From positions 124,001 to 188,000 of the forward strand of contig JAFDWU010000005.1 in NCBI GenBank assembly GCA_018268315.1: DNA of 64,000 nucleotides, written 5' to 3'. The first letter of the stretch is position 1. Each line of letters begins with the position of its first letter. The notes below the pieces were generated by a model. That model ran no database searches, had not been told where the DNA came from, and saw nothing but the letters and a program-made list of their open reading frames with translations. Shown piece after piece: positions 47,771 to 52,265 of this stretch. This DNA comes from Armatimonadota bacterium. Its GTDB lineage: Bacteria > Armatimonadota > Fimbriimonadia > Fimbriimonadales > Fimbriimonadaceae. The translations under genes and the position numbers were made by a program.

Positions 47771-48987
47771 TTTGCCTTCCCCGCCTGATCGCTTAACGGC
47801 AAGTTCCCGACGGCCATCGCCTGCACTGAGAATTGTACGATAGGCTTCTGTTCGATCGTGGCGTTGTTCGCGAAAACGAGCTTAACGTCCCGTAATCTTG
47901 CTTCACCGGCTAGGTTGCTCACAAAGGCCGCCACCTGCTCGCTTTTAAGCGCGGTTCCGCGAATCACCGTCATCTTCCCACGCTCCAGCGTCACTCCGTT
48001 GAGCCACACGCCGGTCGGCGCGTCGTTCGCAATAATGCTCATCACGTCGGTAAGTCGTTGAGCAGGCTCAAATGCCCGCTTAAGCACGGTTCCCTTGCTC
48101 TGCAAATCCAAACCTTTCGTCTTTTCAAGGTTCAGCAGGTCCGTGTTCTTTTTCATGCTCTTGGCAAATACGCTATCCAGCTTGCGAACCTTGGCGACCT
48201 CGTCGCTGTGCCGCATGTACAGGTCCATGATCAGGATCGCGGTCAGCGCTGTAAGGGCATAAACGAACGTATTCCGCTTTCGGTTAACGGCGTCTTCACG
48301 GGCGCGAATCGCGTCCGGGGTTTCTAAGTGGAATTCGAGGGTGGGATCGGCAAGGTAAGTGGCAGATGCCTCCGGCCTGCTTTGCTCCGTGAAGGAGAAG
48401 TTGGCCCCGCCTGCGCCTATCACGGGAGCAGGTGGACATTCAGCGGCGGCAAACGTGCGCTTGACCTCTTTCTCGAGTTCGGCTTCGCTAAGCCCTGCCT
48501 TCAGGACACGGCTGTACTTGAGCTCACCATCCTTAATGATGTCGACGCAGTAGCCGCCGGAATCCATCTCGATGACTGCGCAATCACGCAACCCGAGCCT
48601 TCGGGCGAGCAGGAGACTGCCGAATGCGGCTGGAACCACTCGATTCGCGTTTGCCCCCGCTTCTTTTGTCGCCTTATTAACCTCGACGAGTTCCGTTTCT
48701 CTAATCGCGCCAAGCGTTGCCGCCCTGCCTTCCATGTTGACGTCGTCAGCTAGCAGAATATCGAAAGCGATTTCGCTCGCGTCCAACGGAAGGTAGTCGC
48801 CTGCGGTCACCCTCAGCGCTTCCGCCACCTGGGCTTTCGGCGCGTTTGGAACTCGCAGACTTCGAACAAAGCTAGACCGGCGGCTGATCGCAATCGTCAG
48901 CTTTTCGCCGCGCAAAGTGCCGCTTCCGTTAAGCGGCTTGAGGCCATCTCCCGACCACAGGGCAACTGATTGTCCTACACCGCTCAC
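47767..48987 (-). CDS. gspL: GspL-like assembly protein (PilM-type actin fold plus PilN-type domain)
   Basis: A 406-residue protein. The N-terminal ~220 residues are a cytosolic actin-like domain (KAQVAEALRVTAGDYLPLD, CAVIEMDSGGYCVDI) as in GspL and PilM. A transmembrane helix (NTFVYALTALTAILIMDLYM) follows near residue 245. The periplasmic ~140 residues have the PilN-like fold (VLKRAFEPAQRLTDVMSIIA, WLNGVTLERGKMTVIRGTA). It thus merges the roles that T4P systems split between PilM and PilN, as GspL does. It overlaps its neighbours by 4 bases on both sides. Confidence 0.85.
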   Translation of the reverse strand: MSGVGQSVALWSGDGLKPLNGSGTLRGEKLTIAISRRSSFVRSLRVPNAPKAQVAEALRVTAGDYLPLDASEIAFDILLADDVNMEGRAATLGAIRETELVEVNKATKEAGANANRVVPAAFGSLLLARRLGLRDCAVIEMDSGGYCVDIIKDGELKYSRVLKAGLSEAELEKEVKRTFAAAECPPAPVIGAGGANFSFTEQSRPEASATYLADPTLEFHLETPDAIRAREDAVNRKRNTFVYALTALTAILIMDLYMRHSDEVAKVRKLDSVFAKSMKKNTDLLNLEKTKGLDLQSKGTVLKRAFEPAQRLTDVMSIIANDAPTGVWLNGVTLERGKMTVIRGTALKSEQVAAFVSNLAGEARLRDVKLVFANNATIEQKPIVQFSVQAMAVGNLPLSDQAGKAK

Positions 48988-50195
48988 TGCTGTAAATCCC
49001 CCAAATCTATCGTGTTATCCACATCCGCCCAACTCCAGCGAGTCGGCATATCCGAAAACGGCGGAGTCTCTAGCCGGTACATCACCGGATGACTCCCATC
49101 AATTCGCACCCAGCCTTCCAGCGTCTTAGTTACCCCACCGGCAGTCCCAACCACGCGGACGATAAAGCCCTCGCTGGCCACCGTAAGCAGATCCGCGCAT
49201 TGCTGAATGATTGCGGTCGTGAGTCCTTGCACATCGGAAAGGCTTGCTAGATTGGTTATCCCAGAGCTTTGGCGCTGAACAATGGTGGAAGCAATCTGGG
49301 ATGTAAACCCAGGCAGAGTCTGGAGCACGTCCTGGCTCGCGGTGTTCACGTTCACTTGCCCTTTTCGATATCCGGTAGTGCCAATGGTGAAGGAATCAAG
49401 GAAAGCGAGAGATTGCTGGACGCTGAGCCGTGCTTGGGCCAACACTGGTCCCAAGGACGTGTATCCCGTAACCGGCCGCTGGCGAATGATGTTAAGGGCG
49501 ACGTTTGCAGGAATGCCAGCGCGCGTGAGCTGGGCCTGAGTTGCGGTGTTGATATTCGTCTTCCCATTTGCGGAAGCCAGCGTGTCAACCTGGCAAAGCT
49601 CGTAAAGGGCCAAATCCGTCGGCACATTCGCATTGCTCGACGTCGTTGTGGTTTGCACGGTGTAAAGCGTTTGCGGCGTGAAGTATCGAACCTGCAAAAG
49701 CTCGTCAAACGTGCTGAAAGGATGCAGCCGCGTGTTGTACGGATTCGTGAGGTTGTGATAGAAATCGTCCTTCGCGCCATCCGATCTCGGGGTGGTGGAA
49801 GATTCACGGTAATCCAGGAGGGCATCCATCTGTTCGCCGGTTAGCGGAAGATTCTGGAGTTGGGCTTGGGGCGCCGTGTTCAAGTCGATATATGAGCAGG
49901 AATCGACAATTTGCAGGCGGAACGAGCCCCCGGGAAACGTGAAGCTATCTGCGCCGGAGCGGCCAGTCGTGAACCAGTCGTCAGATTGCTGGGTTAACGT
50001 CTTGGATTGATTCTCCAGCAGCGCCATCGCATAGGCAACACCGGCCTCAGCAGCAAGCCGTGCCCGATCGCTCTCCATCCGGTCGCGCATCTTGGTTAGG
50101 TTCACCCGGTTCTGGTTCACGGCAAGCGTCAGCAAGGTCACCATCGCGACCATCGCCACCAGCGTCAGGATGAATACCGCGCCGCGCCTTTTCAT
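48984..50195 (-). CDS. gspK: Minor pseudopilin GspK
   Basis: A 403-residue pseudopilin. The N-terminus KRRGAVFILTLVAMVAMVTL has the prepilin-peptidase site (G|AVFIL) and no Glu5, as usual for GspK tip pseudopilins. Two helix-hairpin-helix/SAM-like segments occur (NINTATQAQLTRAGIPANVA and VNTASQDVLQTLPGFTSQIA), characteristic of GspK. It overlaps gspJ and gspL by ATGA-type 4-base overlaps. It caps the pseudopilus with GspI and GspJ. Confidence 0.93.
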   Translation of the reverse strand: MKRRGAVFILTLVAMVAMVTLLTLAVNQNRVNLTKMRDRMESDRARLAAEAGVAYAMALLENQSKTLTQQSDDWFTTGRSGADSFTFPGGSFRLQIVDSCSYIDLNTAPQAQLQNLPLTGEQMDALLDYRESSTTPRSDGAKDDFYHNLTNPYNTRLHPFSTFDELLQVRYFTPQTLYTVQTTTTSSNANVPTDLALYELCQVDTLASANGKTNINTATQAQLTRAGIPANVALNIIRQRPVTGYTSLGPVLAQARLSVQQSLAFLDSFTIGTTGYRKGQVNVNTASQDVLQTLPGFTSQIASTIVQRQSSGITNLASLSDVQGLTTAIIQQCADLLTVASEGFIVRVVGTAGGVTKTLEGWVRIDGSHPVMYRLETPPFSDMPTRWSWADVDNTIDLGDLQQ

Positions 50196-50926
50196 CGTGT
50201 CGCGCCTCCCGTCGTGGTTGTGGAGGTTTGTGAGAGAGGGTTGCTGCTTGTAACGTCGCTTAGCGGCAACTGCACGGTTAATATTCGAGACGTGTCTTCG
50301 CCGTTAAGCGTGTAGGTCATTCGCACGGCCGCGGGCAAACGTCGCTGGCCCGTCGTTGTATCCCAGCTTTGTGCCCACTGGGTTCCATCCCAGAATTCGA
50401 AGGTCACGTCGTGCACGTCGGAGTCGAGAAGTTCCTCGTATCCGCCCGATGTCGATGTGGCGTCTCCCGGCCGCTGCCTTCGAAGGAATAGCCCAGTCTT
50501 GCCACCCGCATCCCCCACCGCGGTGGTTGAGAGCCCTATCTCTTCGGTGCCACCCTGAGGTCCGTACTTGCGGTTGATGGTCTCGAAATCATCGGTCGAG
50601 TTCAGTACGTAGCTCGGAGGCGCGTCGCCCTGCGCGGTTAAAACGATGGTGTCGGCGCCGCTGCTGGAAAGCCCGCCGCTTTGATTGGAAGCTATGAAGT
50701 ACGTAAAGGTATCGGTGGTGCTGTCGGTTACCCGCGCCCGCTGAATAAGTCTGCGAACGGTGCTTTCAAACTCAATCTGTTTATCCCAACTTGACTGCCG
50801 AGTGACTGCTCGCTGGTTGTAGTCAAGGCCCACCAGCGTGACCCGAATGAGGCCGGTCATGATCATGGCGGCAGCGGCGCTGCCGACAAGGATTTCAATC
50901 AACGAGAGGCCCGCGCGACGTGTTAT
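50192..50926 (-). CDS. gspJ: Minor pseudopilin GspJ, probable ATA start
   Basis: About 244 residues. The first conventional start candidate is TTG at 50902, which would begin inside the prepilin signature (LIEILVGSAAAAMIM) and remove the cleavage site. Eight codons upstream, ATA at 50926 gives MTRRAG|LSLIEILV, a perfect prepilin leader with a Gly|Leu peptidase site and Glu5. A GGGAGGG precedes it by ~6 nt, and the ATA overlaps the gspI stop (ATAA) in the same way ATGA overlaps join the rest of the operon. I therefore take ATA as the start; a sequence error (ATG) is the alternative. The periplasmic part (FETINRKYGPQGGTEEIGLS, FEFWDGTQWAQSWD) fits GspJ. Confidence 0.85.
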   Translation of the reverse strand: MTRRAGLSLIEILVGSAAAAMIMTGLIRVTLVGLDYNQRAVTRQSSWDKQIEFESTVRRLIQRARVTDSTTDTFTYFIASNQSGGLSSSGADTIVLTAQGDAPPSYVLNSTDDFETINRKYGPQGGTEEIGLSTTAVGDAGGKTGLFLRRQRPGDATSTSGGYEELLDSDVHDVTFEFWDGTQWAQSWDTTTGQRRLPAAVRMTYTLNGEDTSRILTVQLPLSDVTSSNPLSQTSTTTTGGATR

Positions 50927-51327
50927 GGCGTCCCTCCCGAAGTCGTGGTTACGGTTGTCGGCGGGACGTAGTGCGGGAGGCTGACCTGTGCCGTCGCGCC
51001 GCTTGGGTCGTCGGATCGGCTAACCGTGATCGTCGCCATGTTCAAATCAGTTGTGCTAGTTGTGGTATCTGAAGCAGTCCAGGTGTGGGTGGTATCGCCA
51101 ATGTCGCTGAAGTCCCCGTTCACGTTCTGGCCAGTTAGCTGACCCGTCGCCAATAGCTCTTCCAGCTTCTGAACAGCGAGCCGCGTCATCTGCTCTTTCT
51201 CGTGGGTGTGAATCTCAGAGGCAGCGAGCTTTCCAAATGCGCCGACCACGCCAACCAAGCCTACCGATAGAAGCAGGATGGCCATAACGACCTCGACAAA
51301 GGAAAAGCCGCGCCTACCTCTGTTCAT
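50923..51327 (-). CDS. gspI: Minor pseudopilin GspI
   Basis: A 134-residue pseudopilin. The leader MNRGRRG|FSFVEVVMAILLL has the Gly|Phe cleavage site and Glu5. ATG 51327 is preceded by CAGGAGACCTTT, a good ribosome-binding site, which decides against the longer frame to 51405. The C-terminal ~100 residues include EKEQMTRLAVQKLEELLATG, the usual GspI/GspV helix. It overlaps gspH by ~14 bases and gspJ by 4 bases. Confidence 0.93.
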   Translation of the reverse strand: MNRGRRGFSFVEVVMAILLLSVGLVGVVGAFGKLAASEIHTHEKEQMTRLAVQKLEELLATGQLTGQNVNGDFSDIGDTTHTWTASDTTTSTTDLNMATITVSRSDDPSGATAQVSLPHYVPPTTVTTTSGGTP

Positions 51328-51862
51328 AAAGGTCTCCTGCCTGCCAACGCAAGCTCGCCGGGTCGGGAAGCTGCTCGCTTTCCGTGATCCTGCCCTTGTG
51401 GTCAATGCGGATCGCGATGTCCTTCTGACTGCGCTCCCATTGAAGCGAGGCTACATCGGCAGTCCCGTCCTGATAGAAGCTGACTTTCCATTCGTCCTGC
51501 GAGACGTCCGCATCATCCAGACGCCAGAATTTCACATCAATTCCTTCTGGCTTGGCGATGCGCTGCAACTCCGTCGGCTGGCCCTGATCGGTATCGGCTT
51601 GCTGCTCCAGAATGAACGCTGAGCTCGTGCTGTCATAACGCAATGTCACGGTGTGCCCAGCCTGATGCGCCTCTTGCAAGCCGCGGACGAGCACAGTCTT
51701 CAACTGCGGCTCAAACTCTCGCTCGCGCCGACCCGCTTCGCCTGCCGAAATTTGCGGTACGACAAGGCCTGCGAGCAAAGCGATCGCAAAAATCACCACC
51801 GTGGCCTCCACAAACGTGAAGCCACTTCTACGGGGAATCCGCGGATATGTCGGCCGCGTCAC
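51314..51862 (-). CDS. gspH: Minor pseudopilin GspH
   Basis: About 182 residues. The prepilin site is RRSG|FTFVEATVVIFAIALLAG with Glu5. GTG 51862 is preceded by GGAGGTGAGG, giving a 14-residue basic leader. The open frame continues to 52066, but that lies inside gspG. The C-terminal body (TVLVRGLQEAHQAGHTVTLR, WKVSFYQDGTADVASLQWER) fits GspH. It overlaps gspG by ~35 bases at its 5' end. Confidence 0.9.
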   Translation of the reverse strand: MTRPTYPRIPRRSGFTFVEATVVIFAIALLAGLVVPQISAGEAGRREREFEPQLKTVLVRGLQEAHQAGHTVTLRYDSTSSAFILEQQADTDQGQPTELQRIAKPEGIDVKFWRLDDADVSQDEWKVSFYQDGTADVASLQWERSQKDIAIRIDHKGRITESEQLPDPASLRWQAGDLYEQR

Positions 51863-52265
51863 CCTCACCTCCGGGTTGTCCGTCTGAGCCGTACGACTCA
51901 AGCGTGAATGTCTCTCGTCCTGCTGGGCCAGGGTAATCGTAGTGATACGGATTGCCCCAAGGATCGGTGAAATTCTGAGTTGTGTAGGGTCCTTTCCAGC
52001 CTTGAACGTCGGCGGGCTGCGTACGTAACGCTTCCAAACCTTCTTGCGAAGACGGATACCGGTCACAGTCCGCGCGGAAGGTGTTCAGCATGCTGCTGAT
52101 TGCCGCGATGTCTGACTTAGCCTTGGCGATCTTCGCATCGCTGGTACGCGAGACGACTCGCGGCACGATAAGCGAGGCCAAGATTCCAAGAATCAGAATC
52201 ACGACCACGAGCTCGATGAGCGTGAAGCCCCTGCGAACCCGGTGACGAATAGAACGAATAGGCAT
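51828..52265 (-). CDS. gspG: Major pseudopilin GspG
   Basis: A 145-residue major pseudopilin. Leader RRG|FTLIELVVVILILGILASL with Glu5. The GspG-specific C-terminal region is plain: YPSSQEGLEALRTQPADVQG, YTTQNFTDPWGNPYHYDYPG and YGSDGQPGGEGDAADI, the calcium-binding loop. It forms the pseudopilus shaft. It starts 14 bp downstream of the gspF stop and overlaps gspH. Confidence 0.97.
   Translation of the reverse strand: MPIRSIRHRVRRGFTLIELVVVILILGILASLIVPRVVSRTSDAKIAKAKSDIAAISSMLNTFRADCDRYPSSQEGLEALRTQPADVQGWKGPYTTQNFTDPWGNPYHYDYPGPAGRETFTLESYGSDGQPGGEGDAADISADSP

Follow-up and report, generated by a model that had tools for sequence, protein, structure and literature searches.

A putative ATA start codon for gspJ in a type II secretion operon of an Armatimonadota bacterium

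The gene for GspJ, a minor pseudopilin of the type II secretion system (T2SS), has no usual start codon at its expected position in the assembled genome analyzed here. On balance, we lean towards the view that gspJ is begun weakly at an ATA codon, created by a single G-to-A change, by ribosomes arriving from gspI. The window that we analyzed is a stretch of 64,000 nucleotides (G000:C5:124001-188000) from a 2.8 Mb genome assembled in nine contigs, and it carries the T2SS operon on its minus strand.

The gspI/gspJ junction and the GspJ leader

The gspJ open frame from ATA 50926 has 244 codons and ends at TGA 50192 (50192..50926; all features described for the window are on the minus strand). We assigned its 244 aa product as GspJ based on a match to Pfam T2SSJ (33.9 bits, relative to a gathering cut-off of 28), on alignment, and on the location of the gene between gspI and gspK, as expected for GspJ. 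The upstream gene, gspI (50923..51327; sequence, Pfam and gene order), would bring ribosomes to the junction, and the downstream gene, gspK (48984..50195; gene order), has an ordinary ATGA overlap with gspJ. The junction reads ...TTCGGGAGGGACGCC ATA ACA CGT CGC GCG GGC|CTC TCG TTG ATT GAA..., in which the proposed ATA start codon (50924..50926) is situated where relatives carry NTG, and the gspI stop codon TAA (50923..50925) is shared with it as ATAA, a 4-base overlap. The Shine-Dalgarno core, GGAGG (50933..50937), lies six bases 5' of the ATA. The initial annotation of this DNA, which placed ATA 50926 in ATAA with the gspI stop, had these coordinates and codons correct.

Translation from ATA would give the prepilin leader (M/I)TRRAG (50909..50926), which is short and basic, with Gly at the cleavage site and Glu retained at +5 (TRRAG|LSLIE); such a leader is obtained only with translation starting at or before ATA 50926. 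The 31 codons that precede ATA in the gspJ frame, back to the nearest in-frame stop, include no ATG, GTG, TTG or CTG. The first ATG, GTG or TTG after that stop is TTG 50902 (50900..50902), which is within the mature N-terminus, and a product begun there would lose the Gly-1/Leu+1 cleavage site. Two earlier claims, that this TTG is past the cleavage site and would abolish the prepilin signal and that ATA is the only plausible gspJ start as assembled, no usual in-frame start giving a leader, are thus borne out. The ATA is located 5 codons before the cleavage Gly, and the starts of most relatives are 3-8 codons before it.

We consider it highly improbable that gspJ is instead reached from ATC 51016, from TTG 50902 or by a frameshift from gspI. 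Frames for all three routes do exist, ATC 51016 being the sole other near-cognate codon upstream of ATA in the gspJ frame. However, based on a general bacterial anti-Shine-Dalgarno sequence, which may not be that of this genome, the duplex energy at ATA 50926 is -10.8 kcal/mol, whereas ATC (-2.9 kcal/mol) and TTG (-2.6 kcal/mol) are without a Shine-Dalgarno sequence. Furthermore, use of the TTG deletes the cleavage site, a gspI-gspJ fusion would bury the prepilin leader, and no slippery heptamer was seen by eye in GGGACGCCATAACAC.

The ATAA junction had been presented as an exception in an operon whose other T2SS junctions were all ATGA-type overlaps or abutting starts. This description does not fit the gspG, gspH and gspI junctions, as gspG starts 14 bases past the gspF stop, the gspI ATG (51327) overlaps gspH by 14 bases, and the gspH/gspG overlap is longer than that of gspI/gspH. 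Two GTG codons near GGAGGTGAGG are the likely candidates for the start of gspH, which overlaps the end of gspG (window 51828-51880), and the gspH leader (MRVTRPTYPRIPRRSG) is longer than typical.

Starts at related loci and the integrity of gspJ

We searched for gspJ in 61, and then 85, genomes and found it in 29 and 64, respectively, with the source genome counted. The gspI/gspJ junction was readable at 66 related loci, with one locus cut off by a contig end excluded; a script chose among neighboring start codons, and the junction tallies vary by a few between two readings. The initial annotation had proposed that gspJ starts be compared across related genomes, and this comparison found ATA at none of the 66 related loci, so that the codon is not conserved. 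An ATG, GTG or TTG is present no more than 12 codons from the cleavage Gly in 63 of these loci, and in 53/66 the start and the gspI stop share a 4-base overlap (ATGA, GTGA or TTGA). At L118 the gspJ start is a GTG 13 codons upstream of the cleavage Gly, while L008 and L014 have an insertion at the gspI/gspJ junction and their usual starts are distant.

In L014 (G013:C5, reverse strand, about 1275-1500), a repeated palindromic sequence, TCCCCCTC...GAGGGGGA, separates gspI from gspJ, and the nearest gspJ ATG, which adjoins the repeat, is 29 codons before the cleavage site; L103, from a genus mate, has an ordinary GTGA overlap. In L008 (G012:C86, reverse strand, about 1340-1490), approximately 150 bases with GAGTTCC/GGAACTC-type repeats separate the gspI stop from the prepilin motif, and the closest usual gspJ start is a TTG 53 codons upstream.

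A profile search of contigs with a four-row GspJ alignment identified nine related records with 32-45% identity, titled as Fimbriimonadaceae, Fimbriimonadales or other Armatimonadota, and no close relative; the corresponding contig search with GspI found no relative.

The Shine-Dalgarno sequence of gspJ is average for this group, as it is equalled or exceeded in strength in 29 of 64 relatives. It is therefore not the unusually strong sequence that was looked for at the ATA, and the compensation that might be seen at a long-established ATA start is not evident. Local RNA structure at the gspI/gspJ junction is ordinary (z -0.29).

An average Shine-Dalgarno sequence, along with a single-base difference that occurs in one assembly and at 0/66 relatives, is in line with a sequencing, consensus or assembly error, the real sequence then being ATGA with its G miscalled as A. 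In addition, the site was chosen for its oddity, and one such case could arise among some thousands of starts even if errors are infrequent. We regard an error as the lesser possibility but one to be taken seriously. Against it are the intact T2SS genes that surround gspJ and, as weak evidence, the sparing of the gspI stop. Seven single substitutions of ATGA make an unusual start, and only two of them, CTGA and ATAA, spare that stop; the other two substitutions at the G of ATGA would destroy it. The stop-sparing change (2/7) mildly favors a real selected change over random error, although a transition error looks identical.

The coding sequence itself is well preserved, with all 20 invariant columns of a 23-sequence GspJ alignment kept in this protein. 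The gspJ frame therefore shows no sign of decay; a recent change would leave none. A real and recent down-mutation, leaving GspJ too weak or absent, either as early decay of the secretion system or as a polymorphism in the population, is in our estimation unlikely. It is in keeping with the fact that gspJ was undetectable in 21 of the 85 family genomes, which indicates that the system can be lost, and with the reports that an ATA start in E. coli yields only up to 1% of the expression from ATG (Hecht et al., 2017, as cited in PMC12864459) and that GspJ is required for secretion in P. aeruginosa (PMC6211770). On the other hand, there is no further lesion in gspJ or its neighbors, and an E. coli strain with an ATG-to-ATA change in rpoS lost at most about 5-fold of the protein (PMC12864459). 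A few family genomes, such as G062, have two gspJ copies, and the secretion system seems to have been both lost and duplicated within the family.

Proposed origin of the ATAA overlap

The reading that we prefer, weak initiation at ATA after a G-to-A change, begins with an ancestor that would have had the usual 4-base gspI/gspJ overlap, ATGA. One G-to-A substitution, giving ATAA, would have turned TGA into TAA at the gspI stop, a silent change, and ATG into ATA at the gspJ start. Such a single change explains the ATA site with the gspI stop intact. Initiator tRNA would then begin gspJ at AUA, aided by the GGAGG that lies six bases before it and by ribosomes just ending gspI. The rate of initiation would be lower than at AUG and is probably sensitive to IF3, but as GspJ is a minor pseudopilin of the pseudopilus tip, small amounts may suffice. 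We infer each of these elements, that is, the use of ATA, coupling to gspI, IF3 sensitivity and tolerance of a low dose.

The suggestion that termination-reinitiation can rescue a weak start fits with the gspI/gspJ stop-start overlap, which at 4 bases is one of the two lengths (4 or 1) by which we recognized coupled pairs, and coupling of 4-base overlaps in this manner is a documented general mechanism (PMC6728339). The spacing of TRRAG|LSLIE, NTGA at 53/66 relatives, the invariant residues, the Shine-Dalgarno sequence and an ATA at infC (below) all point to ATA as the probable start. Weighing against a tolerated ATA start are its occurrence in one assembly only, the lack of a relative with ATA, the average Shine-Dalgarno sequence and the lack of a detectable gspJ in 21/85 genomes. 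A stronger version, in which a fixed and functional AUA start is retained via reinitiation after gspI and the dose of the tip protein is set by IF3-sensitive reinitiation, we consider doubtful.

The arrangement at gspJ is rare in the source genome. The pattern GGAGG-N4-9-ATAA occurs at 53 genome sites, relative to 42 for a reversed control pattern, and gspJ is the only one of the 53 at which a long upstream frame closes with the TAA and the downstream frame, also long, is start-less, defined as having no usual start codon at or upstream of the ATA. This arrangement is more than expected by chance. A second ATAA candidate with long flanking frames, L087, was rejected as it has usual starts upstream and six codons downstream of the ATA. 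In NTGA overlaps G-to-A is the sole third-base change that spares the upstream stop, and for this reason ATAA starts may recur and escape gene finders.

ATA at infC and comparison with known AUA starts

The gene for IF3, infC, in the same genome (L031; G000:C1:257320-257808) reads AGGTGA-TCGACA-ATA-AAG-GGC. Its Shine-Dalgarno sequence contains an in-frame TGA, and ATG, GTG and TTG are all absent between that TGA and the conserved INERV stretch. ATA thus appears to be the best-placed infC start. Across the infC loci compared (L031, L045-L065 and L155-L160), 19 of 22 family genera have ATA at the start site, mostly preceded by a GAGGTGA-like Shine-Dalgarno sequence, two have ATC (L046 and L160) and one, L064, has ATT. 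In f5, the second family with gspJ, the site is ATA or ATT, and in most others it is ATT or ATC. Judging from these sequences, the lineage appears to employ ATA starts beyond gspJ. In E. coli, infC starts at AUU, and near-cognate infC starts are conserved and are autoregulatory in that species. The source genome's infC is like gspJ in having ATA as its best-placed start, but near-cognate starts at infC are conserved, whereas ATA at gspJ has been seen once.

An altered genetic code was considered as an explanation and rejected; TilS is present, in keeping with AUA being decoded as Ile within genes, and ten T2SS genes contain 15 ATA codons among their 3474.

AUA starts in bacteria are already known and gspJ, unless its ATA is a sequencing error, is another example of a known phenomenon. 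The emphasis of the initial annotation on how unusual such a rare start would be was overstated, given ATA at infC in most family genera and published AUA starts. Gene finders limited to ATG, GTG and TTG would truncate or overlook gspJ, dropping its prepilin leader. If real, the gspJ start would mean that a coupled, well-placed AUA can serve a conserved gene, and that the kinds of unusual start open to a gene are steered by its overlap with a neighbor. Across much of the family, the infC sites suggest that AUA is the usual start of this gene, which would be a useful annotation rule.

The closest published counterparts are infC, ccpN and citZ of S. aureus, for which the passages of PMC13009471 drawn on here describe AUA starts with approximately 10% of the expression from AUG, and up to 30% for ccpN. 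These starts were shown by ribosome profiling, with reporters in addition for ccpN and citZ. As at gspJ, AUA replaces AUG in these genes and is accompanied by a good Shine-Dalgarno sequence. The citZ AUA is limited to one strain lineage, and the gspJ change would likewise be lineage-restricted. The S. aureus genes differ in that their Shine-Dalgarno sequences are extended, while that of gspJ is average; in that initiation was demonstrated, while at gspJ it is proposed from the sequence; and in that those passages describe no overlap like the 4-base one at gspJ (PMC13009471).

The E. coli rpoS (PMC12864459) and Listeria rsbW (PMC13068326) mutants resemble gspJ in carrying one G-to-A change in the start codon. 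Translation of rsbW persists after its ATG-to-ATA change (PMC13068326), and both mutants still express their gene, more weakly. In addition, rsbW, like gspJ, overlaps its upstream gene, there by 17 bp (PMC13068326). Both mutants arose in the laboratory and had their effects measured, whereas gspJ comes from a natural assembly. Finally, compared with ATGA/TGATG coupled pairs (PMC6728339), gspI/gspJ differs in its ATA start and TAA stop and in that we infer its coupling, and it resembles them in its 4-base overlap and in a Shine-Dalgarno sequence that falls within the upstream gene.
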